Of a DNA stretch of 41,845 nucleotides, positions 6,481 to 38,657 are shown piece after piece; position 1 is the first letter of the stretch, and the number at the start of each line of letters is the position of its first letter. The stretch is taken from positions 1 to 41,845 of the IMG/VR virus record IMGVR_UViG_3300005529_000505; one strand, given 5' to 3'. The notes under the pieces were generated by a model. That model saw only the letters and a list, made by a program, of their open reading frames with translations. It did no database searches and had not been told where the DNA came from. Source of the stretch: a virus. Both the position numbers and the translations under genes were made by a program.

Positions 6481-7016
6481 GAGGCCACCTCTGCCGGGTC
6501 GTCGTCGAACAGGGTGGGCTGGCCGCCGGGCACCAACTCCGGCGCGGGCATGTCCGCGGGCAGCAGCTGGAAGACGTGCAGGCCGCTCTTGGTGAATCCC
6601 ACCTGCCGGAATCCGGCCTTGCGGTAGCACCAGCCCACGCCCTGGTCGCGGTACCGGCCGGGCTTGGCCCGGATCTTCCGGGCGTCAACCATCGTCACCA
6701 TTCCCTGCGGGGGGGGGTCGGGCCATTTGGCGAGGGTGTGCGCGACGGCGTGGCGGATCATGTCGGATGCCAGGCCGGGGCCGGTTTTGACGAACAGGGT
6801 GTTCATCCACGCGCCCGCCCAGTTGTGGAGCACGTAGTCGGCGAACGGCCAGAGGGAGGACCAGCCTGCGGTGCCGTCCTCGCTCCGGAGCACTAGGACG
6901 CGGCCGGGCGGGGTGAACTGGGCAGCTCCGATGGTCTTGCGGGAGTAGTGGCCGTCAGCGAGCCGTGCAACTACGGGGTCCGCGCGCCAGGAGAGACGCC
7001 ACGGGGTGCCCGTCAT
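6477..7016 (-). CDS. Mom-like (GNAT-fold) DNA-modification protein, putative
   Basis: 179 residues. The pattern VARLADGHYSRKTIGAAQFTPP, then WAGAWMNTLFV, GMVTMVDARKIR and WCYRKAGFRQVGFTKSGLHV resembles the acyltransferase-like family containing phage Mu Mom, which converts adenine to a carbamoylmethyl form. The HYSR box and the AGF segment are the key resemblances. This assignment is from memory of the family, not a search. The tail ends GQPTLFDDDPAEVAS, containing QPTLF, a beta-clamp-binding-type pentapeptide. The Dam-like methylase gene lies directly upstream with a 4-base overlap. Confidence 0.65.
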   Translation of the reverse strand: MTGTPWRLSWRADPVVARLADGHYSRKTIGAAQFTPPGRVLVLRSEDGTAGWSSLWPFADYVLHNWAGAWMNTLFVKTGPGLASDMIRHAVAHTLAKWPDPPPQGMVTMVDARKIRAKPGRYRDQGVGWCYRKAGFRQVGFTKSGLHVFQLLPADMPAPELVPGGQPTLFDDDPAEVAS

Positions 7017-7843
7017 GACGCCGCCTCATCGTCGTCGAACAGGGTTCCTTGCGGGAACGGGCGGTTAGACCACAGCGCCTCGGTACGGTTGCCCCACGTC
7101 TCGGCGTTCTGGCCGGTGCCCGATGCGAACTCCGTCCGGTGCCAATCGGGGAACAGCTCGCGGTCGTAGAGGTCCGAGGGGTAGCCCGACAGCACCACGG
7201 ACGCCTTGACCTGCTGGAGGGCCTTGGCGAGGTCGCGGTGGTCATCCTCGGTCATCTCGTGCCGGTAGGCCCCACTGCTCCGGGTGGAGCGCAAATAGGG
7301 TGGGTCCACGTAGAGCAGCACGTTGGGGCTGCGGCCGTACCACTCGATCAGTTCCAGCGCGGGCCGGTTTTCCAGCGACACGTGGTGGAGCCGCTCAGCC
7401 GCGTCGTGCATGCGTCCGACGTAGGCGCTCAGGTATTCCGGCATCCCATGGGCCGAACCGCCCGGCTCCACGAAGTGCCGCCACCCGGTGCTGCGGAGCG
7501 TCCCAGTGCGGCCCTGGGTGAGCCGCACCCACACGCGGCGGGCCTGCTCGAGGTCGCCGCACGGGGCGTCCACGTCCTCGGCGCCGTCGAACTCCGCGAG
7601 AGAGTGCGGGGTCAGGGCGCACATCCGCGCGAGCTCGGCAGGCTGATCCCGCAGCACCCGCCAGAACGCCACCACGGCCCCGTCGAGGTCGTTGATGGTT
7701 TCCATCCCCGATGCCCGCTTTTCCAGCAGGACCGCGAGAGAACCACAGTAGGGCTCCACGTAGTGGCCGTGCGCGGGCAGCAGGGCGGCGATCCGGGAGG
7801 CGAGGATCGACTTCCCCCCGAAGTAGATAAACGGCGGCTTCAC
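7013..7843 (-). CDS. D12-class adenine-specific DNA methyltransferase (Dam-like)
   Basis: 276 residues from a GTG at 7843. It has the D12 class architecture: IYFGGK (7-11, SAM-binding start), YVEPYCGSLAV (28-38), NDLDG (51-55) and the catalytic LLYVDPPYL with DPPY at 180-183. It methylates N6 of adenine; class members include Dam enzymes for GATC, but specificity cannot be read here. The frame is open far upstream, but the GTG overlaps the preceding gene's stop and precedes the first motif directly. The C-terminus ends QGTLFDDDEAAS, with the same LFDDD tail as the next protein. Confidence 0.93.
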   Translation of the reverse strand: MKPPFIYFGGKSILASRIAALLPAHGHYVEPYCGSLAVLLEKRASGMETINDLDGAVVAFWRVLRDQPAELARMCALTPHSLAEFDGAEDVDAPCGDLEQARRVWVRLTQGRTGTLRSTGWRHFVEPGGSAHGMPEYLSAYVGRMHDAAERLHHVSLENRPALELIEWYGRSPNVLLYVDPPYLRSTRSSGAYRHEMTEDDHRDLAKALQQVKASVVLSGYPSDLYDRELFPDWHRTEFASGTGQNAETWGNRTEALWSNRPFPQGTLFDDDEAAS

Positions 7844-8133
7844 CCGGCCCTCCCGCACAGCCCGCACCGGAACCCCTCCGGAGGTTCCCCCGCACACCTG
7901 GGGCACGGCACATCCGGTGCCCGCAGAAGCACCCACGGATCTATGCCGAGGGCCTTGGCGAGCCGTTCCAGCATCGGGAACGTCAGCCCACGTTTCCCGT
8001 TTTCGATCATCAGAACCGCGGCCGGGGTGTGGCCCGCGTCTGCCGCCAGCTGCGACGAGGACAGGTCCAGGGCCTTCCTCGCCTCGGTGATCCTGGCGAC
8101 TACGACGGGGGTCAGCGAGTCGGTGGGCATCAT
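7840..8133 (-). CDS. XRE-type HTH protein with C-terminal zinc ribbon
   Basis: 97 residues from ATG 8133 (ATGA overlap). An XRE helix-turn-helix occupies residues about 12-65 (RKALDLSSSQLAADAGHTPA, VLMIENGKRG, MLERLAKALGIDP). It is followed by CPRCAGEPPEGFRCGLCG, a four-Cys zinc ribbon. The combination suggests a small DNA-binding regulator, perhaps controlling the methylase operon in which it sits, as C-proteins do. A role is inferred only. Confidence 0.85.
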   Translation of the reverse strand: MMPTDSLTPVVVARITEARKALDLSSSQLAADAGHTPAAVLMIENGKRGLTFPMLERLAKALGIDPWVLLRAPDVPCPRCAGEPPEGFRCGLCGRAG

Positions 8134-8726
8134 GCTGGCTCCCACGGGGTGAGGTTCGTCGAGTAGGCCAGCCGCCCCGGGTGGCGCGGCTGACCCTTGG
8201 CGGTGGTCCCGAGACACTGGAAACGGACCCCGGCCAGCGACCGGGTGACCTCGCCGGCGCGGCCGGAGCCGGCACCATGCGATCCCCAGCCCGCCACGAC
8301 AGCGCCGCCGGGCTGGCACATCACGGCCAGGCACGCATCGTTGCCCGGCCCGACCGGGTCCGGGTGGCCGTCGAGCTCGCCGGGGTCGGTGGCGACCAGG
8401 GCGAACAGGTTGACTACCGCGATCGAGCCGAACCCGGCGGCCTTCGCCCGCCGCCAGCAGCGGGCGATCGTCGGGTCATCCGTCCAGGCGTCCGCGGTGC
8501 TCGGGTTGAGCATCACCCAGGTCATCACCGGCCCCGGAGCCCACCGGCGGGTCAGCAGGTACCGGTAGGTGCCGCCGGCGCCGAACACCGCCACCGAGGG
8601 GCCGTAGAGCCCTTCACGCAGGTCCGCGGCAGGTTCGGCGCCTGCCTTGTCCAGTGCTTGAAGCAGGGTGCCGAGGGTGGCCCCTTCGGTCATTGCCTGG
8701 CGCAGGTCTTCGTCGGTGGCCGTCAC
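8130..8726 (-). CDS. DUF1643 domain protein
   Basis: 198 residues. The C-terminal 140 carry the DUF1643 signature: TWVMLNPSTADAWTDDPTIARC, VVNLFALVATDP, GPGNDACL, VVAGWGSHG and CLGTTAKGQPRHP. The family is found in phages and mobile elements; its activity is unknown. The N-terminal 50 residues are helical. Coupled to both neighbours by 4-base overlaps. Confidence 0.9.
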   Translation of the reverse strand: MTATDEDLRQAMTEGATLGTLLQALDKAGAEPAADLREGLYGPSVAVFGAGGTYRYLLTRRWAPGPVMTWVMLNPSTADAWTDDPTIARCWRRAKAAGFGSIAVVNLFALVATDPGELDGHPDPVGPGNDACLAVMCQPGGAVVAGWGSHGAGSGRAGEVTRSLAGVRFQCLGTTAKGQPRHPGRLAYSTNLTPWEPA

Positions 8727-10124: not shown

Positions 10125-11078
10125 TCATGACGGGGCCGCTTCGTGTGCTGGACGGCACACGGGGCACCGGTAGGGGGTTCCGTCCGGCTTCTCGCGCATC
10201 CCCCGGTCGCACTCGCCGCATGGCCCCGGTTCCGGCGCAGGCTCGTCCTCGGCCGGCGGCAGGAACCGCCCCTTGGGGTTGGGCTCATTGCGGATCGCCG
10301 TGCGGATGTAGGCACCGAGGTTGTCGGGGTGTCTCTTGGCGGCAGCAAGGATGGTGCTGGCGATCGTTTTGGCATGTCCGGCGGTGACGACGCGCCCGGT
10401 CCGGTCGTTAATCAATCCAATGATCGATTTGAGAAAATCGTCATCGTCTAGCGCACGCGCGTAACGGTCCGCAGCTTGATCGATTAGATCGCTTAGATCT
10501 TTAGATCTATCTAGATCTTTAGATCCAGGATCCGCGCGCGCACGCGAAGGATTCGCACCCGATTCGGTGGTGCGATCGGGTACCGATCGGAGGTGTGATC
10601 GCTCCTGCGATCGGTTATCCGATGGGTCCTCTGATCGGTTATCCGATGAGGCGAGCAAGCAGTGGGGGCATCCCGGCTTGACCACGTTCCGCCCCTTGTG
10701 CCAGCGGAGGTGGTTGCCGAAGCTGCCGCCGTCCGACTTGCCGTCGTGCTCGGCGCGAACCTCTTCCTTCGTCGGCTGGTGCTCGAAGTAGTCATGGATC
10801 ACCCAGCCGCCTTCACTCGCTGGCCCTGGGCAGTTCTCGGACGTGCACGCCTGCTCGGCCTGGTGCCAGACACCCCGGCGCACGCACTCGGCCGCGAGGC
10901 GCTCAACGCCCCGCAGCCGTGGGCACACGAGGTCGAGGTCTTCGGTGGGGATAAAGCCGTCTGTCGTGTTGCGGAAGCACCAGAAGATCGCTGAGGTGTG
11001 CAGCCGGAACGCCGCATCGGAGAGCCCGTCGACCTTGCGGTGGATCGGGTACTGGGGGTCGAAGCTGACGGAGGGCAT
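10125..11078 (-). CDS. Replication-initiator-like winged-helix protein
   Basis: 317 residues; the ATG overlaps the upstream stop (TGATG). The N-terminal domain (about 1-105) has the look of the winged-helix domain of phage replication proteins: VDGLSDAAFRLHTSAIFWC, TDGFIPTEDLDLV, GVWH. A linker (about 135-200) has a low-complexity S-x-x-R tetrapeptide repeat. A helical domain (205-265) and a zinc pair (CGEC ... CPVC, 287-308) end it. The linker DNA holds 12-bp repeats and a GATC cluster, as lambda O carries its origin inside its own gene. Neighbour genes (HNH/winged helix, methylase) fit a replication operon. Initiator function is inferred. Confidence 0.75.
   Translation of the reverse strand: MPSVSFDPQYPIHRKVDGLSDAAFRLHTSAIFWCFRNTTDGFIPTEDLDLVCPRLRGVERLAAECVRRGVWHQAEQACTSENCPGPASEGGWVIHDYFEHQPTKEEVRAEHDGKSDGGSFGNHLRWHKGRNVVKPGCPHCLLASSDNRSEDPSDNRSQERSHLRSVPDRTTESGANPSRARADPGSKDLDRSKDLSDLIDQAADRYARALDDDDFLKSIIGLINDRTGRVVTAGHAKTIASTILAAAKRHPDNLGAYIRTAIRNEPNPKGRFLPPAEDEPAPEPGPCGECDRGMREKPDGTPYRCPVCRPAHEAAPS
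10410..10532. other. GATC cluster with AT-rich flank, candidate replication origin
   Basis: GATC occurs at 10478, 10487, 10496, 10504, 10514, 10522 and 10529, with steps of 7-10 bases, and again at 10422. Around it, 10410-10447 is unusually AT-rich for this genome (runs such as GAGAAAATCG). With the iterons on the gene-upstream side, the order iterons, GATC block, AT-rich stretch matches an origin with an unwinding element. Origin function is inferred. Confidence 0.5.
10574..10656. repeat. Intragenic 12-bp tandem repeats (iteron-like)
   Basis: Units start at 10585, 10597, 10609, 10621, 10633 and 10645, each with GAT; an 11-bp unit precedes at 10574. GATCGGTTATCC is exact at 10609 and 10633, and the following GATG makes a 16-base match. 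The 12-base step encodes a four-residue repeat, so it is invisible to reading frame. It resembles iterons bound by a replication initiator. Confidence 0.7.
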
Positions 11079-11662
11079 CAGTCGCCACTCCCCGCCGCCA
11101 CCGCGACGCCCGGCGGGTCGAGCAGGACCATGCCGGCCTGCTCGGGCGTCCTGGGACCCTTCTTGGTGTTGCACGCGGTGCAGGCGACCACGAGGTTCTC
11201 AAGGCTGTTGTCGCCCTCTGGGTCTACGTGCTCGAAGACTCCGCTGTTGGTCGCGCAGACGCCACCCCAGCGGACGGCGCAGCCGCAGTACCGGCAGAGG
11301 TCGGCGTCCCGCTCGCGGACCGCCTGCCTAATCTCTTCGTCGCGCCAGAGCGCTTGGCGGCGTGTGTTCGCCGCTCTCTCTCGCTGGACCTGCTCGCGCG
11401 TCGGATGCCACTCCGGGTGGTAGAGCCCGATGTACCATCTGTCCCCCCGGTCTTCCCACCAGCCCTTGGCAACGAGCCCCGCCGCGGCTTCGGTCGCGGC
11501 AGGCGACCCGGCGAACCGGTGCAGGTTGCGTTTGGGGACGTACAGATCGAGGCCGCGCTCGTTGGACCACATAAGCGCCTCGCCGTAAGTGCGGAACTCC
11601 GCATCGGTGAGGTCGCGGGAGTCGTAGGCGAACTCGTCCCCAAACCTGGTGTAAGTGGCCAA
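11078..11662 (-). CDS. Winged-helix/HNH endonuclease protein
   Basis: 194 residues starting at a TTG (11662); an in-frame TGA lies 8 codons upstream, and GAGAGGCGG precedes the start. Residues 1-105 resemble the N-terminal domain of the next gene (LTDAEFRTYGEALMWSNERG, LVAKGWWED). Residues 118-178 are an HNH domain: DADLCRYCGCAV (C123, C126), FEHVDPEGDNSLENLVVACTAC (H145, N157, C161, C164), NTKKG. HNH enzymes next to replication genes are common in phages; here it is fused to a replication-type domain. First gene of its operon. Confidence 0.85.
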   Translation of the reverse strand: MATYTRFGDEFAYDSRDLTDAEFRTYGEALMWSNERGLDLYVPKRNLHRFAGSPAATEAAAGLVAKGWWEDRGDRWYIGLYHPEWHPTREQVQRERAANTRRQALWRDEEIRQAVRERDADLCRYCGCAVRWGGVCATNSGVFEHVDPEGDNSLENLVVACTACNTKKGPRTPEQAGMVLLDPPGVAVAAGSGD

Positions 11663-11865
11663 CCTTCCGGCCGCCTCTCTTGGTCAATGTGCTGGTAGGA
11701 CTGCTTGGCTAACCTCGGTCATGACCTTACATCATGCAACTAGACCATGCGCAAGTCTCGTGACACCAACACGTGTTGATGTGTTATGGTGGAAGCACAA
11801 GACACGATCGCGGTCATGGCGCGAGTCATGAACGAGATCACGATCTGAGTACGTGATGTGGAATC
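11663..11865. promoter_or_regulatory. Divergent intergenic region with palindromic operators
   Basis: Low-GC stretch between the minus operon (start 11662) and the plus gene at 11866. CAACACGTGTTG (11767-11778) is a perfect palindrome between a TGACAC (11761) and a TATGGT (11785), an 18-base spacing, so a repressor there would block the plus promoter. GGTCATGACC (11717-11726) is a second perfect palindrome on the minus-operon side. GTGGAAGCACA occurs at 11789 and again at 11881, just inside the gene, a short duplication. Confidence 0.55.
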
Positions 11866-12117
11866 ATGGGAGGCATGGACGTGGAAGCACAGATCGCCGA
11901 CGCGGCAGACCGCGTGTGGCGCGGCCTCGAGGCGCAAGACGAGCTGTGGCACCTGATCCACGAGCACGGCGGCGACCCGAAGCGCGACCCCAGCAAGATC
12001 GGGGCAACGCGAATCGCCGAACTGACGGACTACCTGTACCGGACGGAACACATCAGCCGGATACCGTCCTTGGAGCCCCCCAAGCGCCGCAAGCGCAGGC
12101 GCCGCATGGCTGACTGA
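11866..12117 (+). CDS. Small hypothetical protein with basic tail (83 aa)
   Basis: Starts at ATG 11866; an in-frame ATG at 11875 is close behind a GGGAGG and may also serve. Helical and acidic in the first 60 residues (AQIADAADRVWRGLEAQDEL), it ends in a strongly basic stretch (PPKRRKRRRRMAD). It faces the replication operon across a palindromic operator and ends before a strong hairpin. A small regulator is plausible; no domain recognised. Confidence 0.65.
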   Translation: MGGMDVEAQIADAADRVWRGLEAQDELWHLIHEHGGDPKRDPSKIGATRIAELTDYLYRTEHISRIPSLEPPKRRKRRRRMAD

Positions 12118-13856: not shown

Positions 13857-14134
13857 GACGCCAGTCCTTCCACGAGATCCCAGGTCAGGGTGAAGCTGAG
13901 TGGCTGCACCGCCAGGCCGCGGTCGAAGTCGGCCATGAAGGCGCTCACCTCGACGGGGAGTTGCGCCCGCATCCGGTGGCCGCAACTGCCGGTGGCGACC
14001 GCGTAGATGCCGCCTGCGGAGACGTCGATGAGACCCGAGGCAAGAAGCGCCAGAGCTACAGGACAGCTGCCGCACCTGCCCCGCTGGCCCTCGTCGATGA
14101 TTCGCTGGGTGACCTTGTAGGTGACAGTGCTCAT
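13853..14134 (-). CDS. Small hypothetical protein with Cys pair (93 aa)
   Basis: Starts at ATG 14134, overlapping the stop of the DUF5131 gene. Sequence features are RIIDEGQRGRCGSCPVALAL, then GIYAVATGSCGHRM and FTLTWDL. The motif order suggests an alpha/beta fold with a possible metal site. The family appears to be one of the small phage-type proteins, but I cannot name it. Confidence 0.72.
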   Translation of the reverse strand: MSTVTYKVTQRIIDEGQRGRCGSCPVALALLASGLIDVSAGGIYAVATGSCGHRMRAQLPVEVSAFMADFDRGLAVQPLSFTLTWDLVEGLAS

Positions 14135-15144
14135 GCCGGGATCGCCTCTCGCGTGGCCGGGAACTCGCGGACCCGGAGGTCTTCGGGCCATGCGTCCCAG
14201 TCGCCGCCCTTCGGGCCAGCGCCGAGGGAGCGGCCAAGCACCGAGCCAAGTTGCTTGAGGAAGAACGGGACCTCGGCGTGGTGGCAGTGGTCACGGATCT
14301 GGCGTAGCCACTCCAGATCGCAGGGGCGCGCTCCGGGACCGCTCTCGCCACCCGCTATCACCCAGTCGATGCGCCGCGGCAGCGTGCCCGCGCTCGGCCC
14401 TGGGCACCACGTCTCAGATTCGCGTTCTTGCTCGTCGTAGATCAGGCGGTCGTGACCGTTCCCGATCTCGTCCTCGAACCGCTCGTCGCCGCAGACGTCG
14501 CAGTCGACGCATGGCATGGACGGGTCGAGCAGGTGCCAGATGTTCAGCGGGCCGAGCAGCGGTTCGCAGGACAGGAACCGGGTCACGGCTGGGGTGTCGA
14601 GAAGGGCGTGGATGCGGATGTCGGCCCACTTCCGGTCCTCGACGCTGACGCCGAGCCAGACGTTGGGCAGCGGCCATGTCGCTGCCGGGACGATGCCTGC
14701 CTGCCCGTGTGCGCGCATGGTGGCGCCTTCCCCGGTGGTCACCGTCTGGGCGAAGTCGGCGGATGAGAGCAGCGAGCGCATCCGGGCGTGCCGCTTCGTG
14801 AGCAACTGGAATGTGTGCTGGCGGGCCGCGCCCATCACCGCGAACACCTGGGCGATGTAGTCGTCCGGGACGGCCTCGTGGAACAGGTCGCTCATGCTGT
14901 TTGTGAAGATGCGGCGGGGGCGCTTCCACCGGAGCGGCTGCTCTAGCCGCTCGGGCCGCAGGGTGACGTCGAAGCCGTTCTCGAAGTGGTGGCCAGGGGT
15001 ACCGCGCCAGCGCTCGGCGAACGTCTCGGCATAGCAGTGGTCGCAGCCTGGCGACACCTTCGTGCAGCCGGTGACCGGGTTCCAGGTGGCGCCGGGTGTC
15101 CCGTCGTCGCTCTGGGTCCACTCGATCTTGCTCTTGTCGCTCAT
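14131..15144 (-). CDS. DUF5131 (phage Gp37/Gp68) family protein
   Basis: 337 residues of normal family length. Hallmarks are KIEWTQ near the start, ATWNPVTGCTKVSPGCDHCYAE (Cys with Cx6Cx2C), RRIFTNSMSDLFHE, FQLLTKRHARM, NVWLGVSVED and RFLSCEPLLGPL, then WVIAGGESGPGARP and FFLKQLG. The Cys pattern and repeated beta-alpha look recall radical-SAM barrels; no activity is established to my knowledge. Common on phages and mobile elements. It overlaps both neighbours by 4 bases. Confidence 0.93.
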   Translation of the reverse strand: MSDKSKIEWTQSDDGTPGATWNPVTGCTKVSPGCDHCYAETFAERWRGTPGHHFENGFDVTLRPERLEQPLRWKRPRRIFTNSMSDLFHEAVPDDYIAQVFAVMGAARQHTFQLLTKRHARMRSLLSSADFAQTVTTGEGATMRAHGQAGIVPAATWPLPNVWLGVSVEDRKWADIRIHALLDTPAVTRFLSCEPLLGPLNIWHLLDPSMPCVDCDVCGDERFEDEIGNGHDRLIYDEQERESETWCPGPSAGTLPRRIDWVIAGGESGPGARPCDLEWLRQIRDHCHHAEVPFFLKQLGSVLGRSLGAGPKGGDWDAWPEDLRVREFPATREAIPA

Positions 15145-16816: not shown

Positions 16817-17967
16817 TGGCCGTCCCAGGCGGGGTCGCCGTCGAACAGGGAACCACCCTCGGGCTCGGCCGCCGCCCCGGCCGCCGGTTCCGGGGCCCGC
16901 TGCCGGGGCTGACTGCGGCCCCGCTGCGGCGCCGGGAGTTCCATCCAGCGGGCATTGAGCAGCACCTTGAGCTCCTCGAACACCTCGGGCTCCCCGTCGC
17001 GGCTGGAGTCCACGAGGTCGTCGGCGAGGTCCGCCTCCTTGGCGCGGGCGGCGAGCTTGTCGATGTCCCCGCGGGTCTGCGCCAGGTGGGCGAGGTCCGC
17101 GATCTGCTGGGCGGTCACCGGCGCTGCTGCTGGCCTGGGGGTGGGGGTTGCGGCCGGGGGCGTCTCATCCGACTCGGTGCGCTTGGGTGCGCCGGATGTG
17201 ATCGCCTTCTGGGTCTCGCCCGCGCCAAGCTGGGCGAGCATCCCGTCCATCCCGGTCGGCAGTGCCGCGAGTTGCTCGGCGGAGGGGCTTGGGCGCAGAA
17301 CCGGTACCGGGTAGGGGTGACCGTCCTGTCCAGGCCGCCAGTGGATCAGTGCCTGTGCCGGCAGGTACACGTCCATGCCGCGTGCCCGCTCCAGAACCTC
17401 GCCAGTGTCGGCGGTCTCAACAGCGGCGTTTTTGGATCCGGTGTTGAGCCGCCACACGCCGATCACGCCGGGAAGCCAGGGGATAGCGAGGTTGATCCGG
17501 GTGAGCGGCTTGCACCCCTGCGGGGTCTTGAGCTTGGCGAGGCGTTCCCGCTCGGCTGCCGCGCGGGTGACCTGCGCCGGGTCAGCCCGGTCTTGCGGCT
17601 GGGGGCACATGCACGGCCGGCCGGACCGCTGCTCGGTGATGCCATCGCAGCGGCGCAGGCACCTCCCGCCGTCCCACATTTCCATCCAGGCGTCGACCGC
17701 CCGGCCTCGCGGCGGCACCCACACGTCGATCTTGGCGACGTCGGTGTCCACCACCCAGTAGCCCCGGCGGCGGTCCCACGGCAGCGGCCGGCCGCCGAGC
17801 CGTTCAGCGATCGCGGCGGCGGTCTCTTCGACGGGGGTGGTGAACCGGAACGCTTCAAGGCGGCGAGGCTGGCGGCCGCCGTTCTTGCCGGGGATGGAGT
17901 CGCCGATGCGGATCTCGCCCAGCGGCAGGGAGCGGCGCTGGAGGTCAAGTACTCCGGTGATAGGCAT
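16813..17967 (-). CDS. Gp3-like recombination directionality factor
   Basis: 384 residues. The N-terminal half matches the actinophage Gp3/RDF family: LDLQRRSLPLGEIRIGDSIP, RRLEAFRFTTP, GYWVVDTDVAKIDVWVPP, RCDGITE and later PCMCPQ. In phiC31, gp3 binds the serine integrase and turns it to excision. The C-terminal 180 residues are an extra helical, Pro-rich part ending GGSLFDGDPAWDG. No serine integrase is visible in the window, so the partner may lie outside. The family match is from memory of the pattern. Confidence 0.72.
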   Translation of the reverse strand: MPITGVLDLQRRSLPLGEIRIGDSIPGKNGGRQPRRLEAFRFTTPVEETAAAIAERLGGRPLPWDRRRGYWVVDTDVAKIDVWVPPRGRAVDAWMEMWDGGRCLRRCDGITEQRSGRPCMCPQPQDRADPAQVTRAAAERERLAKLKTPQGCKPLTRINLAIPWLPGVIGVWRLNTGSKNAAVETADTGEVLERARGMDVYLPAQALIHWRPGQDGHPYPVPVLRPSPSAEQLAALPTGMDGMLAQLGAGETQKAITSGAPKRTESDETPPAATPTPRPAAAPVTAQQIADLAHLAQTRGDIDKLAARAKEADLADDLVDSSRDGEPEVFEELKVLLNARWMELPAPQRGRSQPRQRAPEPAAGAAAEPEGGSLFDGDPAWDGQ

Positions 17968-19415
17968 TGGGTTAACGCAACCTTTCCGGGCGCGGTGGTT
18001 TCGGTGGCCAGGCTCAAACCGCTGGCGGCGAGCATCTGGCGGATCGTGCCGATGAGCTTGGGGCCGACGCCCCTGACGGCGCGGAGGTCGGCTGCGGTGA
18101 ACCGGGCAAGCTGCGCCAGTTCGCAGTCGCCGCCGAACGCCGCGATGACGGGGGCCAGCCCGCTGTACCCCTCGGCTGCCATGTCGCGCAGCCGCGTGCC
18201 GGGTGTGAGGGCCAGGCCGTGTTTCGCAAGCATCTCCCGCACGGTCTCGATGACCTTGGGGCCGACACCCTTGACCGCGAGGACGTCACCAGCGGTGAAC
18301 CGGGCCAGGTCTTCCAGTTCCATCGCGGCACCGAACGCCTCGCGGAGCGGGGCGAGCGAATAGCCGTACCCTTCGGCGGCCAGGTCGCACAGCCGCGGGC
18401 CGGGGACGGTGCCGTCCGGGCGGAGCGGCCGGATGCTGGTACCCGGCTTCCCCTTGCACGACTGCCGCCCGCGGAGCAGGTCGATGGAGCCGAGGAACCG
18501 CTCCCACGCCGCCTCGTCCTCGCCGGCGGAGACGAGCTGCAGCAGGTACCCGCCGGGGTACTCCGGGCGGAGGTGCAGCACCGCGCCGGCTTCGGTCGCC
18601 GGGGTCGGGTGCAGCCGGTCGTCGGTCTTGTCCGGGCGGCACTCGGGGCAGCGCCGGTAGCCGGCCAGCTGTTCCTTGACGGTGCCATCCAGGGTGCGGC
18701 CGGTTTTGAAGTCCACGCACAGCACCAGGTCGTGCCCCGGGTCGGCGACCGCGTGGGTGGCTTTGCCGGGGCAGTACGCGCCGAGGTGGCAGGGTGCCTG
18801 GCCGCAGATGTTGTAGCCGCGCAGGACCAGGATGGTGTCGAGCGTCCCGGCGATCCGCAGGTCCGGGTTGTAGACCTGCATCTCGCAGGCGAGGAAGTCC
18901 TCCGGGCGCAACCCAAAGTCGGTGATGAACTGGACGAACCCGTCCTCCATCTGGGAGGTGATCACCGGCACAAGCTCTTCGTCGTAGTAGGCGTTGCGCA
19001 GGTGGTCGGGCATCACCGGGTAGGCGATCAGGTGGCCGGTCTTCTGAGGCTCCCGTGCCCAGAGGATCAGGGCCTCGCCGACGTCGTGCAGGTAGGTGCC
19101 GGCGTCGGCTTTGACCTGGCGGCGGCGGTCGGCCTCGTCTTTGCCGAGCGCGACCGCGGCGTCCCGCCCTTCCCGCTGGAGGGTGTAGAGCAGCAGCCGC
19201 ATGTTGTCGACCGCCCACTCCATCGACGTCCGCCCGTGCCATTTGGCGATCCACGGTTTGGAGTCGGTGGCGGAGATCAGCCACGTCACCGACTCGAACA
19301 GCTGGGTGGGGTCCGGTGGGTACGGGTAGAACCGTTCGTCGGTGTGCTTGTTGGTGACCGGCGCCAGCGGGTCGGCGGCCGGCGCGGCTGGGAGCGTCCC
19401 GGCTGCGATGCTCAT
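17463..19415 (-). CDS. Cas4/RecB-like PD-(D/E)xK nuclease with two HhH repeats
   Basis: The nuclease core runs to about residue 320: TYLHDVGEAL (H110), ACEMQVYNPDLRIAGTLD (E178, D193), VCVDFKTGRT (D235, K237) and QLAGY (Q249, Y253), typical of Cas4/AddB/RecB-type exonucleases. Two copies of a 60-residue unit follow, each with a helix-hairpin-helix (VKGVGPKVIETV at 381, VRGVGPKLIGTI at 447) for non-specific DNA binding. After residue 484 the frame runs on for about 165 residues over the RDF-like gene, with shadow-like composition. The true C-terminus may be near 17967; no in-frame stop is seen before 17463. First domains are well supported. Confidence 0.82.
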   Translation of the reverse strand: MSIAAGTLPAAPAADPLAPVTNKHTDERFYPYPPDPTQLFESVTWLISATDSKPWIAKWHGRTSMEWAVDNMRLLLYTLQREGRDAAVALGKDEADRRRQVKADAGTYLHDVGEALILWAREPQKTGHLIAYPVMPDHLRNAYYDEELVPVITSQMEDGFVQFITDFGLRPEDFLACEMQVYNPDLRIAGTLDTILVLRGYNICGQAPCHLGAYCPGKATHAVADPGHDLVLCVDFKTGRTLDGTVKEQLAGYRRCPECRPDKTDDRLHPTPATEAGAVLHLRPEYPGGYLLQLVSAGEDEAAWERFLGSIDLLRGRQSCKGKPGTSIRPLRPDGTVPGPRLCDLAAEGYGYSLAPLREAFGAAMELEDLARFTAGDVLAVKGVGPKVIETVREMLAKHGLALTPGTRLRDMAAEGYSGLAPVIAAFGGDCELAQLARFTAADLRAVRGVGPKLIGTIRQMLAASGLSLATETTAPGKVALTQCLSPEYLTSSAAPCRWARSASATPSPARTAAASLAALKRSGSPPPSKRPPPRSLNGSAAGRCRGTAAGATGWWTPTSPRSTCGCRREAGRSTPGWKCGTAGGACAAAMASPSSGPAGRACAPSRKTGLTRRRSPARQPSGNASPSSRPRRGASRSPGSTSLSPGFPA

Positions 19416-28943: not shown

Positions 28944-31058
28944 ATGCGAGCCGCACGGCACTGGGAAGCCCCCGAACTGCCCGAGCCCGAGCCCGAAGAG
29001 GCCCAGGCCGAGGCCCCCCCGGGGCAGCTGCGTTCGCTGGCGACAGCGCACCGTGGCCTGCTGGTCCCGTACCTCTGGATGGTCGCGGTGTTCGCCGCCG
29101 CGTGCTTCACCCGGTTCGCCGTGCGGCCCGCCGCGGGTTTCCTGCCCGCCGCCGCGTTCGCCATCCTCGCCTGCCTCGGCGTGGGCACGTGGGCGATCTT
29201 CCGCCGCAAGGCCCGCAAGCACGGCAATGTCCACGCCACCCTCACCTGGGCGGCCGGGTCGCTGTGGCTGCTACTGGCCACCGCTTGGTCCCCGCTGGGG
29301 CACGCCGGCCCGCTGTACATCGTCCCGGCGCTGCTGACGTTCGGCGCCGCGGGGGTGTCGGCGCCGCACCTGTACCTGCACCGGGTCACCCACGGCGGTC
29401 ACAAGACTGTCGCGGGCCGGGCGGTTGAGCCGGTCACCGAACCGCTCGAGGTGACCAGCCGGGGCCCGTACGTCTCGCCGGTCGTGCAAGACGAGCCCGA
29501 GCCCCCGGCCGAGCCCGCAGCCGAGAGTGGGGCCGGTAAGGAGAGCGACTACGTGGCTCCCGGCGCGGCTGTCCTCGCCGCCGGCGCCCGGCCGAAGACA
29601 CGCGGCGACGGTTCCGACCCGGCCCGCGCCGCCATCACCGGCGTGCTGGACGACTTCGAGGTCCGCGCCGACGTTCTGGGTGTTGTCCGCGGCCCCTCAG
29701 TGTCCCGCTACCTGATCGAGCCCGCCCCGGGTGTGCGAGTGCGGGCCATCACCGGCCTGGAAAAGGACTTCGCGCGGGCACTGCGCGCCGTGGACGGCGT
29801 GCGGATGCTCTCACCTGCGCCGGGGACGTCGGCGGTCGGCCTGGAGTACCCGAACCCGGAGCGGGAAACCGTCACCCTCGGCGACGTGCTCCGCTCCCCG
29901 GTGGCGGCGAAAGACACGCACCCGCTGATCATGGGCCTTGGCAAGAGCGTCGAGGGAAAGCCGGTGGTTGCCAGCCTCGCCAAGATGCCCCATTGGCTGC
30001 TCGGCGGCGCGACTGGTGCGGGGAAGTCGACGGCCGTCCACTGCGCGATCTGCTCCATCCTGACCCGCGCCACCCCGGCCCAGGTGCGGCTGATGCTGAT
30101 CGACCCCAAGCGGGTCGAGCTGGCCGCCTACGCGGGTGTGCCGCACCTGCTCACCCCGATCATCACGGACGCCCGCAAAGCGGCTGAGGGGCTGGCGTGG
30201 GTGGTCAGCGAGATGGATGCCCGCTACACCGCGATGCAGGCGGCCGGGGTCCGGCATATCGACGACTTCAACATCAACGCCCGCGCCGGGCGTGTCCGGC
30301 TGCCTGACGGGTCGCCGGCCAGGCCGTACCCGTACCTCGCGGTGATCGTCGACGAGCTGGCCGACCTGATGATGGTCGCCGCCCGCGACGTCGAGGACTC
30401 GATCGTGCGGATCACCCAGCTTGCCCGGGCCGCGGGAATCCACCTGATCATCGCCACCCAGCGGCCCAGCGTGGACGTGGTGACCGGGCTGATCAAGGCC
30501 AACATCCCGACCCGGCTGGCGTTCGCCACCGCAAGCGGCACCGACAGCAAAGTGATCCTCGACCAGGTGGGCGCGGAGAAGCTCATCGGCCAGGGTGACG
30601 GCCTGTTCCTCCCCGCGGGGGCGATGCGGCCCGAGCGGATCCAGGGCGCGTACGTGTCCGAGCGGGAGATCGACGACGTGGTGGAGCGGTGCAAGCAGCA
30701 GGGTGGCGTGCTTCTCGACCAGGTGGAGATCGTGGCGCCGTCCGCGCCGAGGGGAACCGATCCCGCGCCCCCACCCCCGGGTGGTGACGCGCCGGCGGCG
30801 GGCAAGGGCGACACCGAACTGCTCGCCCGGGCCGCCGAGATCATCGTCTCCACCCAGTTCGGCTCCACGTCGATGCTTCAGCGCAAACTCCGGGTCGGGT
30901 TCACCAAGGCGGGCTGGCTGATGGACGAGCTCGAACGGCGCAAGATCGTCGGCCCGTCCGAGGGCTCCAAGGCCCGCGATGTCCTGGTCGGGCCTGACGG
31001 CCTCCCGGGTGTGCTTGCTGCGCTGCGCGGCGAGGACGAGGGGAGTGGCGGCCAGTGA
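28944..31058 (+). CDS. FtsK/SpoIIIE-type DNA translocase, TraB-like
   Basis: 704 residues. Three or four membrane helices (about 38-145), a linker, then the motor: Walker A GATGAGKS (355-362), Walker B LAVIVDE (465-471) and IIATQRPS (502-509). A C-terminal winged-helix gamma domain (about 624-684) reads [29 protein letters not shown]. Such hexamers pump double-stranded DNA. In actinomycete plasmids one FtsK-like protein (TraB/TraSA) suffices for conjugation; neighbouring hydrolases and membrane proteins fit that. The gamma domain looks closer to chromosomal FtsK than to typical TraB, so sequence-guided translocation is likely. Confidence 0.93.
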
Positions 31059-36564: not shown

Positions 36565-37926
36565 TCACACGGCCGAGACGGCATAGGACACTTCAGGCCC
36601 GGCGGGCCCCTCGGGGTAGGTGGCCGCCACCCAGGTACCGGGCCGGGTCGTGCTGGCCCGCCACACCAGCGGCTGCCCGGCGCGGTGCTGGCAGGCTCCC
36701 TGGGCGTCTTCGAGGGTCGGCCACGGCCCGAGGTTGTGCGCGGCCGGTTCCCTGCCGGGGGCCTTGGCCGCCCACGCGGCGGCGAACGTCCGCGGCCCTG
36801 GCGCCGGTGCGGGGCGGGTGGCGAGTGCGTCACGCCACGCGCCCCGTTTCGCCTCCATGCTGGCCCGCGTCACCCACTCCACCCGCGGGCGGCCACCCGG
36901 CCCGGGCGTGATCGTGAACCGTAGCCCGTCCGCGCCCTGGGTAAGGTCGTTGCCTTTCTCCATCGTGATCACCCGGTAGGCGGCGTTGACCGGGTCGACG
37001 GTCACCTCGTAGATGACCCGCAGCGCGTCCCGCAGCCCTTCCGACCCGGCGAGTTTCCCCGCTTTGTTGGGGTGACCGATGATCAGCACGGCGGGGCTGT
37101 CGAAGTCGGCGAGATCCTGGATCGGCTCAACGAACCGGCGGGCACCGGCGACGGTCTGGATCGAACCCCACCCGACCAGCGCCGTCACCGGGTCGAGAAG
37201 TACCAGCTGCACGTCGCGGGGGTCCTCCTTCCGGTCCCGCAGGTATTTGATGAACGCCCGCAGCAGCGAGATGTGCCCCTCGTGGGTCTGGTCGGCGGAC
37301 AGCTTGAACCGGGTGCCGTCGCCGAGCTTGGTCATGTTGTGCACCCGCCGCGCGTCCCCGCCGGCGGCCTCGATGCGGGCGCGGAGTTGCTCGGGGGTGT
37401 CTTCCGGCCACACCCCGACCACATCCCCGCCGGCCTGGGTGACCTGGGCTATCAGGGCGTGGGTGAGCCGGCCTTTCCCGATCCCGCCTCTCCCGTACAG
37501 CAGCGCGGCGTCCCCGCGGGGCAGGACCAGGGGGATGTCGCCGAGGTCCAGGGGGATCATGGGCCGTTCGGGTACCCGGTCCATCGACGGGATGCCGCCG
37601 AAGTCGTCGGGCCGCAGCCCGGCCTCGGGCGCACCGGCGGGCGGGCCGGCTGCGAGCGAGGGCGGCCAGCCCGACGCGGCCAGCACCGCAACGGCGGCCT
37701 CGGCCGCCGCGGGCCCGGCGGTCTCCTCGGGCTCCGGCTCCGGCTCCGGCTGCGGCTGCAGGCCCGGGCCCGGGTCCCTGTCTGCCGCTGGCTGTGGTGC
37801 TGGCGTGTCCACGGGCCCGCACGCCTGGCATGTCTCGTCCCCGGGCAGGTCCCCGAGACAAGTCCCGCAGTACCATTCCCCGTCGTCGTCCTGCTGTGGC
37901 CCTGCCGTGAGTGTGATCGTGGTCAT
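36565..37926 (-). CDS. RepA-like hexameric ATPase/helicase with N-terminal zinc ribbon
   Basis: 453 residues from ATG 37926 (GGGAGGGC upstream). Residues 20-37 form a zinc ribbon (CGTC ... CQAC), followed by a Pro-Glu repeat linker. The RecA-like core runs from about 105: LLYGRGGIGKGRLTHALIA (Walker A at 145-152), VWPEDTPEQLRARI, LVLLDPVTALVG (Walker B) and VLIIGHPNKAG. This matches RSF1010 RepA-type phage/plasmid ATPases (AAA_25). The Walker A ends GKG instead of GK[ST], which is odd. The C-terminal 80 residues may bind a partner. Likely a replication helicase. Confidence 0.85.
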   Translation of the reverse strand: MTTITLTAGPQQDDDGEWYCGTCLGDLPGDETCQACGPVDTPAPQPAADRDPGPGLQPQPEPEPEPEETAGPAAAEAAVAVLAASGWPPSLAAGPPAGAPEAGLRPDDFGGIPSMDRVPERPMIPLDLGDIPLVLPRGDAALLYGRGGIGKGRLTHALIAQVTQAGGDVVGVWPEDTPEQLRARIEAAGGDARRVHNMTKLGDGTRFKLSADQTHEGHISLLRAFIKYLRDRKEDPRDVQLVLLDPVTALVGWGSIQTVAGARRFVEPIQDLADFDSPAVLIIGHPNKAGKLAGSEGLRDALRVIYEVTVDPVNAAYRVITMEKGNDLTQGADGLRFTITPGPGGRPRVEWVTRASMEAKRGAWRDALATRPAPAPGPRTFAAAWAAKAPGREPAAHNLGPWPTLEDAQGACQHRAGQPLVWRASTTRPGTWVAATYPEGPAGPEVSYAVSAV

Positions 37927-37946
37927 TGCGAAGCCCTCCCGCTCCG

Positions 37947-38657
37947 TTACTGCCTGGTCTGGCCGTTCCATGGCCGGGCGCGGTGCGCGCCGCACCCGAC
38001 GCAAAGCCGGTCAGGCCGGGTGCACGTCGTACGCGCAGAGCCAGTCCTCGTTCCCGGCCGGGTCGGTGATCTTGTAGGCGTCGTGCACCTGCTCCCTTGC
38101 GCCGTCCGTCTCGCAGGGCCGGGTGTCCTGTACGTCCATGACGAAGCCGGCATCAGGTCGTGCTCAATCTTGTCGCCCGCCTTGACATCGCTGGCGGGTG
38201 CGGTGGTCCCGTTCATCCGTTTCCCCGTTCTCTTGTGCGGCCGGTCTTTCCGGCCGGTCAGTGGGTGGTGACAAGGCTGGCGGTCCGGCGCGGCGGCCGC
38301 CCGCAGCGCGGCCAGTTCGCCGCTGATCTCCCGCACGCGCCTCTGGTGCGGCGCCAGCCGGGTCTTGATGAAGCTGTCGACGGCGTCCCGGCGCAGGAGC
38401 TCCAGCCCGTAAACCAGTTGCCGGCGCGCTTCGGGGTTGAGGAACGTGACCCGCTCGCCCCGCGAGGTGTACCGCTGGGTGAACTCGCCGAGCCGACAGA
38501 GGAACACCTGACCGGCGACCATGCCGCCGCCGCGCCACCGGACGTCATCGTGCCAGTAGGCGAAGAACTGCACGCGCCCCTGAGCGTCCACCTTGCCCGT
38601 GATCTCGATGGCGACCTCTCCGGGCTCCATGGCCTCCGGCATCATGCGAGCGCTCAT
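37947..38657 (-). CDS. Hypothetical protein; frame change suspected near 38150
   Basis: Starts at ATG 38657 (4-base overlap). Residues 1 to about 140 look genuine: EVAIEITGKVDAQGRVQFFAYW, GMVAGQVFLCRLGEFTQRY, FIKTRLAPHQRRVREISGEL. The segment SDVKAGDKIEHDL near residue 155 also has strong third-position GC. After about 38150 the good codon bias moves to another frame (see 38011-38139), while this one runs on to 37947. A frameshift, or two genes with a lost stop, is likely. Confidence 0.65.
   Translation of the reverse strand: MSARMMPEAMEPGEVAIEITGKVDAQGRVQFFAYWHDDVRWRGGGMVAGQVFLCRLGEFTQRYTSRGERVTFLNPEARRQLVYGLELLRRDAVDSFIKTRLAPHQRRVREISGELAALRAAAAPDRQPCHHPLTGRKDRPHKRTGKRMNGTTAPASDVKAGDKIEHDLMPASSWTYRTPGPARRTAQGSRCTTPTRSPTRPGTRTGSARTTCTRPDRLCVGCGAHRARPWNGQTRQ
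38011..38139 (-). CDS. Small protein in the alternative frame (42 aa)
   Basis: From ATG 38139: MDVQDTRPCETDGAR, then VHDAYKITDPAGNEDWLCAY. Nearly all its third codon positions are G or C, unlike the overlapping frame. It is either an independent micro-gene or the true C-terminus of the preceding gene after a frameshift: joined, it reads AGDKIEHDL followed by this segment. Confidence 0.5.
   Translation of the reverse strand: MDVQDTRPCETDGAREQVHDAYKITDPAGNEDWLCAYDVHPA

Follow-up and report, generated by a model that had tools for sequence, protein, structure and literature searches.

In lambda and the lambdoid phages, including the Stx phages P27 and 933W, the origin (ori lambda) lies within the O gene, the middle of which holds iterons bound by the initiator together with an AT-rich tract (PMC7466680). 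Similarly, at oriL of SPP1 the protein gp38 binds direct repeats within its own gene 38, beside an AT-rich unwinding element (PMC6316719). Among actinobacteriophage initiators, the RepA of mycobacteriophages is of plasmid type and serves prophage maintenance; an experimental study of RepA replicons found no origin repeats, and its authors suggested a possible lambda-like location of the origin, either within repA or upstream of it (PMC7157519). Finally, the origin of V. cholerae chromosome II contains six tandem 12-mers, each with a GATC, although these lie outside the initiator gene, are used by a different initiator (RctB) and are Dam-dependent (PMC2865523).

The locus described here is found in a 41,845-nucleotide stretch of viral DNA (positions 1 to 41,845 of IMG/VR record IMGVR_UViG_3300005529_000505; hereafter the window). 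It resembles the lambda O gene in having candidate iterons, and in the window itself also AT-rich DNA, midway along an initiator gene, and SPP1 gene 38 in having repeats inside the gene of the predicted origin-binding protein. It differs from lambda O in that a Pfam scan of the encoded protein returned no family at E ≤ 0.1, the lambda O family (Phage_rep_O) included, in that the second element of its relatives is a C/A-rich array of 5-7 bp units, and in that the whole array is non-coding in many lineages of the family. Lambda iterons are also longer than the 11-12 bp units found here. The phages compared whose initiators belong to PHROG 3926/2447 (Arthrobacter TripleJ and DrYang, Mycobacterium Dori, Gordonia Catfish and Microbacterium Phonegingi) have the N-terminal domain of the window's initiator in common and carry an array directly after it, but several of these genes end after that domain, so that the array is non-coding, and the iteron sequences differ. 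No origin annotation was seen in these phages.

Table 1. Features of the initiator locus and other annotated features of the window.
Feature	Position	Strand	Description	Basis
Initiator gene	10125-11078	-	317 aa	PHROG 3926 and PHROG 2447 matches, AlphaFold2 model
Layout of the initiator protein		-	DNA-binding-type domain at the N terminus, then a disordered linker, a helical C-terminal domain and a Cys motif at the C terminus	AlphaFold2, PHROG
N-terminal domain	10644-11078	-	Kept through the family; predicted iteron binder	Alignments A1, A3 and A4
Iteron array (i)	10573-10648	-	About seven units, core CGATCR or CATCGG, 11-12 bp steps, linker-coding	TRF, codon test
GATC block	10478-10532	-	Seven GATC, 7-10 bp steps, (AGATCTA)-like	Codon test
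C-terminal helical domain	10230-10517	-	Helices at residues 188-263; C-terminal half missing in short homologues	AlphaFold2
AT-rich hairpin segment	about 10415-10445	-	Stem of about 10 bp, one bulge, 4-nt loop	G+C dip, DNA fold
HNH endonuclease gene	11078-11662	-	Initiator-like domain in the N-terminal half	PHROG 2447
Possible regulatory region	11740-11900		AT-richer; palindrome ACACCAACACGTGTTGATGT; four GATC, including CGATCG at 11805
D12-class adenine methyltransferase	7013-8278	-	N-terminal extension of about 150 residues	Best PDB match DpnM, E = 5.5e-6
DUF5131 protein	14131-15144	-
Exonuclease	17463-19415	-
FtsK/SpoIIIE protein	28944-31058	+	Alpha and gamma domains
AAA_25 primase/helicase-like protein	36565-38004	-

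The initiator-like gene named in the preliminary description proved to be real, and its product matched the profiles of PHROG 3926 ('replication initiation protein', E = 5.3e-17) and PHROG 2447 (E = 7e-15) over the N-terminal domain. Although the reading frame is open upstream to 11174, we placed the start at 11078 because homologues begin at M(P/S/T)WV, which corresponds to this position. In the AlphaFold2 model, residues 1-140, comprising the N-terminal domain, have pLDDT values mostly above 90, and the linker (residues about 145-190, pLDDT 41-66), which spans the part encoded by the iterons, is predicted to be disordered. A Foldseek search of the PDB with the N-terminal domain gave no significant match, the DnaD N-domain and Rep initiators being weak hits (E 0.2-1.2, target TM 0.44-0.48). 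The matches among viral folds were phage proteins annotated as DUF1376, helix-turn-helix proteins and replisome organizers, the best of them a DUF1376-annotated protein (E = 5.6e-9). The C-terminal domain probably provides contacts for partner proteins, for example a helicase or helicase loader. When viral contigs were searched, the full-length initiator as a protein query found no match, but the family alignment as a query did.

The HNH endonuclease gene lies just upstream of the initiator gene, and the N-terminal half of its product matched PHROG 2447 (E = 6.8e-7) and is 27% identical to the initiator N-terminal domain (E = 3e-5); a domain of this type may direct the enzyme to sites of the origin type. 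The candidate regulatory region is situated upstream of both genes. No capsid or terminase gene was identified among the open reading frames scanned, and the window may therefore come from a phage or from another mobile element. Compared with phage records at the nucleotide level, the right half of the window gave no match.

Direct repeats are located inside the initiator gene, between the portions encoding the N- and C-terminal domains. Along the gene strand the units read TCATCGGATAAC CGATCAGAGGAC CCATCGGATAAC CGATCGCAGGAG CGATCACACCTC CGATCGGTACCC, with CGATCG following 11 bp on, and TRF assigned this array a score of 78 with a 24-bp unit and 52 with a 12-bp unit. The preliminary description had reported six 12-bp steps at 10585-10656. 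The array is indeed present, but it consists of about seven units at steps of 11-12 bp and its limits had been misplaced by up to 12 bp, with 10649-10656 falling outside it. The AT-rich segment and the GATC block of that description were both recovered.

In a codon test, the encoded peptide was kept fixed and codons were drawn from the window's other genes in 20,000 recodings. Over the array and the GATC block together, 12 GATC were observed compared to 1.48 expected, and 7 CGATC compared to 0.36, with 0 of the 20,000 recodings reaching the observed count in either case. The GATC block alone accounted for 7 GATC, where 1.16 were expected from its peptide. GC3 was 0.55 in the array and 0.22 in the GATC block, compared to an expectation of about 0.88, and codon use in the linker was, by this test, shifted from that of the window toward making GATC. 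The 12-bp periodicity by itself did not exceed what the repeated peptide implies (P = 0.17), and since the repeated peptide explains it, the lag-12 autocorrelation was dropped as proof; an unbiased 6-mer repeat test on the window gene alone gave a modest P of 0.024. What argues for repeats at the level of DNA is the GATC motif together with the relatives, rather than periodicity.

Homologues were collected from annotated phages, IMG/VR and genome contigs (the last by alignment A4), yielding a first set of 68 lineages and a main comparison set of 103 non-redundant homologues/loci, and the HDY motif (HDYxxHQxS) of the N-terminal domain was used as an anchor. The homologues have the N-terminal domain in common, and a repeat array follows directly after it. 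The repeats are specific to lineages, for example GACGCGTCT, TAACGCCGTTAG, GTCACGCCGTGAC, TTCGCCCGAACG, CGAAGCAAAAC, TTAGCAAACG, TGCGATCACA and GACAAGTGCCAT, and the linker peptides that they encode show no relation between lineages. The anchor, lags, motifs and all of the following tests were set after part of the data had been inspected. In 56 of the 103 loci, compared to 5.5 expected, periodicity in the 5-24 bp range was stronger 30-330 nt past the HDY motif than anywhere else in the locus. In the same 103 loci, TRF detected arrays of 10-13 or 22-25 bp in 60% of post-motif regions and in 7.6% of control windows, arrays of 5-7 bp in 53% versus 0.9%, and either class in 86% versus 8.2%. Where a locus had both arrays, the iteron-type array came first (29 of 31). 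Peptide-preserving recoding of the 76 coding members revealed repeats in excess at P ≤ 0.05 in 32, compared to a single gene when the N-terminal domains of the same 76 were used as a control.

The gene ends before the array, leaving it non-coding, in 24 of the 68 lineages of the first set and in 19 of the 103 members (about a fifth) of the larger, more stringently thinned set. For instance, L063 translates GTCACGCCGTGACTC plus a (CCCGA)n array, and L067 and L073 have a stop before a closely similar array. Units of the CGATC type at 11- or 12-bp steps were observed in L119, L137, L141, L142, L143, L147, L149, L153 and L154, and non-coding repeats of this type come after the short genes found in DrYang, PrincessTrina and Dori, with related non-coding CGATC repeats in L008, L010 and L002. 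The CGATC/CGATCG units of relatives use frames 0, 1 and 2, which, with steps of 11 or 12 bp, implies that the step is set by the DNA, at about one helical turn, and not by codons. The codon test, the non-coding arrays and the frames all point to selection on the repeats at the DNA level rather than the peptide level, and these comparisons indicate that evolution keeps the DNA repeats and not the piece of peptide encoded by them. The preliminary description had named homologues that conserve the peptide without the DNA repeat as a finding that would count against it; we found the opposite, with the DNA array kept at its position and the peptide not, and the untranslated arrays run against conservation for the peptide's sake as well. 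Its view that the repeat unit is four codons long, for which the protein pays with an S-x-x-R linker, holds for the window gene but not as a rule, given the three frames used by relatives.

In most relatives, the element after the iterons is not AT-rich, but is an A/C-rich, often GC-rich, array of 5-7 bp units such as CCCGT, CCCGA, CCCAG, CCCGGT, CAGAGA, CAGAATA and ACCATTA. Hairpins with a stem of at least 7 occur at 3.9 per kb in the post-motif region, compared to 0.54 per kb elsewhere, and the loops C(TAAC)G, C(TAC)G and C(TTC)G, a pattern spotted after the fact in one locus set, were encountered 17 times in the region and 0 times elsewhere in those loci, on stems that are unrelated. These conserved-loop hairpins are perfect, lie on the sense strand of the gene at +160 to +310 nt past the HDY motif, and are present in L007, L079, L082, L087, L103, L111, L137, L148, L152, L161, L163, L166 and others. 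The C(TAAC)G loop is similar to the UNAC tetraloop of RNA. In Arthrobacter-type loci (L003, L005, L020, L025-L028, L030 and L144-L146), a conserved non-coding stretch about 60-200 nt past the iterons contains inverted repeats of the CTCACCTAAGTG ... CACTTAGGTAACGCG type. An Rfam search with the window and 12 relatives returned no match, and in the loci searched this stretch therefore corresponds to no known RNA family.

The window departs from this pattern in its second element. The GATC block stands roughly where relatives have the 5-7 bp array, and the GATC and AT-rich blocks are either private to the lineage of the window or weakly common with L119, its closest relative (60% identity in the N-terminal domain). 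G+C content reaches a minimum of 0.515 at 10400-10599, compared to about 0.70 in the surroundings, and 13 GATC fall in the 250-bp interval that starts at 10401, where no such interval outside the cluster holds more than 6. AT-rich DNA next to the iterons is thus present in the window, but most relatives instead carry C/A-rich arrays there. Folded as DNA, the hairpin on the gene strand has a z of -2.2, with 4 of 200 shuffles folding as well, and the AT-rich segment is a candidate unwinding or structured element. We read the window as carrying the second element in a variant, GATC/AT-rich form, plus a hairpin weaker than that of its relatives.

Tentatively, and at slightly less than even odds, we propose that a large family, mostly of actinobacterial phages, has a three-part origin directly after the N-terminal domain of the initiator, in coding or non-coding DNA. 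Such an origin would comprise lineage-specific iterons of 11-12 bp, a strand-biased A/C-rich array of 5-7 bp units in place of the classical AT-rich unwinding element and, for many lineages, a hairpin whose loop is conserved and whose stem varies freely, and its DNA would be coding or non-coding as the C-terminal domain was gained or lost. A literature search, which took in few subscription papers, found no description of an arrangement in which iterons precede an A/C-rich array of 5-7 bp units, often with a hairpin after it.

For the window itself, we estimate a probability of about 0.8 that 10573-10648 is an iteron array recognised by the N-terminal domain of the very initiator in whose gene it lies, and that the iterons, together with the GATC/AT block and hairpin at 10415-10532, constitute a phage replication origin. 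The sequences support the existence of the array, its constraint at the DNA level, and its fixed place beside the initiator domain throughout the family; from these we infer protein binding, unwinding, helicase recruitment and origin activity. What weighs against this reading is that AT-rich DNA is no feature of the family and that, taken alone, the window gene gives a modest result in the unbiased repeat test and a 12-bp periodicity explained by its peptide. In the mechanism envisaged, for which lambda O and SPP1 gp38 serve as models, the 11-12 bp CGATCR units would be bound by the N-terminal domain, the initiator probably acting as a dimer because the CGATCR core is palindromic. The bound initiator would distort and open the DNA alongside, and the replicative helicase would be recruited by the C-terminal domain or by a partner protein. 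The initiator homologues of Catfish, Phonegingi and DrYang adjoin genes for a DnaB helicase, a helicase loader or RecE/RecT. The lambda O-like origin of initiator-binding iterons inside the initiator gene, as put forward in the preliminary description, appears to be the best explanation of the locus, and the best reading is an embedded iteron origin of a known kind in a family arrangement for which we found no description.

It is also conceivable, if unlikely, that the array binds the initiator for a purpose other than replication initiation, such as autoregulation through an operator in the gene, incompatibility or handcuffing, or partition. Initiator-bound repeats also work in plasmid copy control, and, upstream of the operon, additional GATC/CGATCG sites are found at 11800-11900. 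However, the array has a fixed place, inside the initiator gene or immediately behind it, and is accompanied by a second array and in many cases a hairpin, which resembles the layout of known embedded origins.

Another explanation, which we consider very unlikely, is that the repeats serve the protein as a flexible S-x-x-R linker, and that the repeated peptide gives rise to repeated DNA as a side effect. This would be in keeping with a linker that is of low complexity, predicted to be disordered and of four-residue period, and with a 12-bp autocorrelation that by itself lies within expectation from the peptide. The persistence of arrays that are not translated largely refutes it, and the use of all three frames, the unrelated linker peptides of different lineages and a codon choice strongly off window usage are likewise at odds with it.

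We also give little credence to a methylation-controlled origin of the P1 or Vibrio oriII type, in which the GATC 12-mers and the GATC block would be methylated by the D12 (Dam-type) enzyme of the phage and initiator binding would depend on methylation. The tandem GATC 12-mers of V. cholerae oriII are bound well by RctB only when methylated (PMC2865523), and the window does encode a MethyltransfD12 protein. However, with the window itself as the positive control, in which the D12 methyltransferase was found, PF02086 passed the Pfam cut-off in 0 of the 12 other records with GATC iterons, L119 among them, and GATC is neither avoided nor enriched window-wide (230 observed, 235 expected). The locus is GATC-dense, but these relatives lack the association with a D12 methyltransferase, and we did not class it with the Dam-regulated GATC origins of the P1, oriC and oriII kind. 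Least credible is a low-complexity segment kept as a recombination-prone joint for the exchange of swappable domains, with no origin function, which would fit the wide variation of domains downstream of the arrays among homologues but leaves unexplained the palindromic 11-12 bp units, the arrays after genes that have ended, the fixed order of the second array (29 of 31) and the hairpin.

To our knowledge, few replication origins have been mapped in actinobacterial phages. The reading of the locus as an embedded origin would supply a rule for predicting origins in many phages, namely that iterons lie 60-330 nt past the HDYxxHQxS motif of the initiator, and the C/A-rich array and hairpin raise the question of how such GC-rich origins open. 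Moreover, the pairs of coding and non-coding arrays would amount to a natural experiment, in which origin DNA dictates the codons of a protein.
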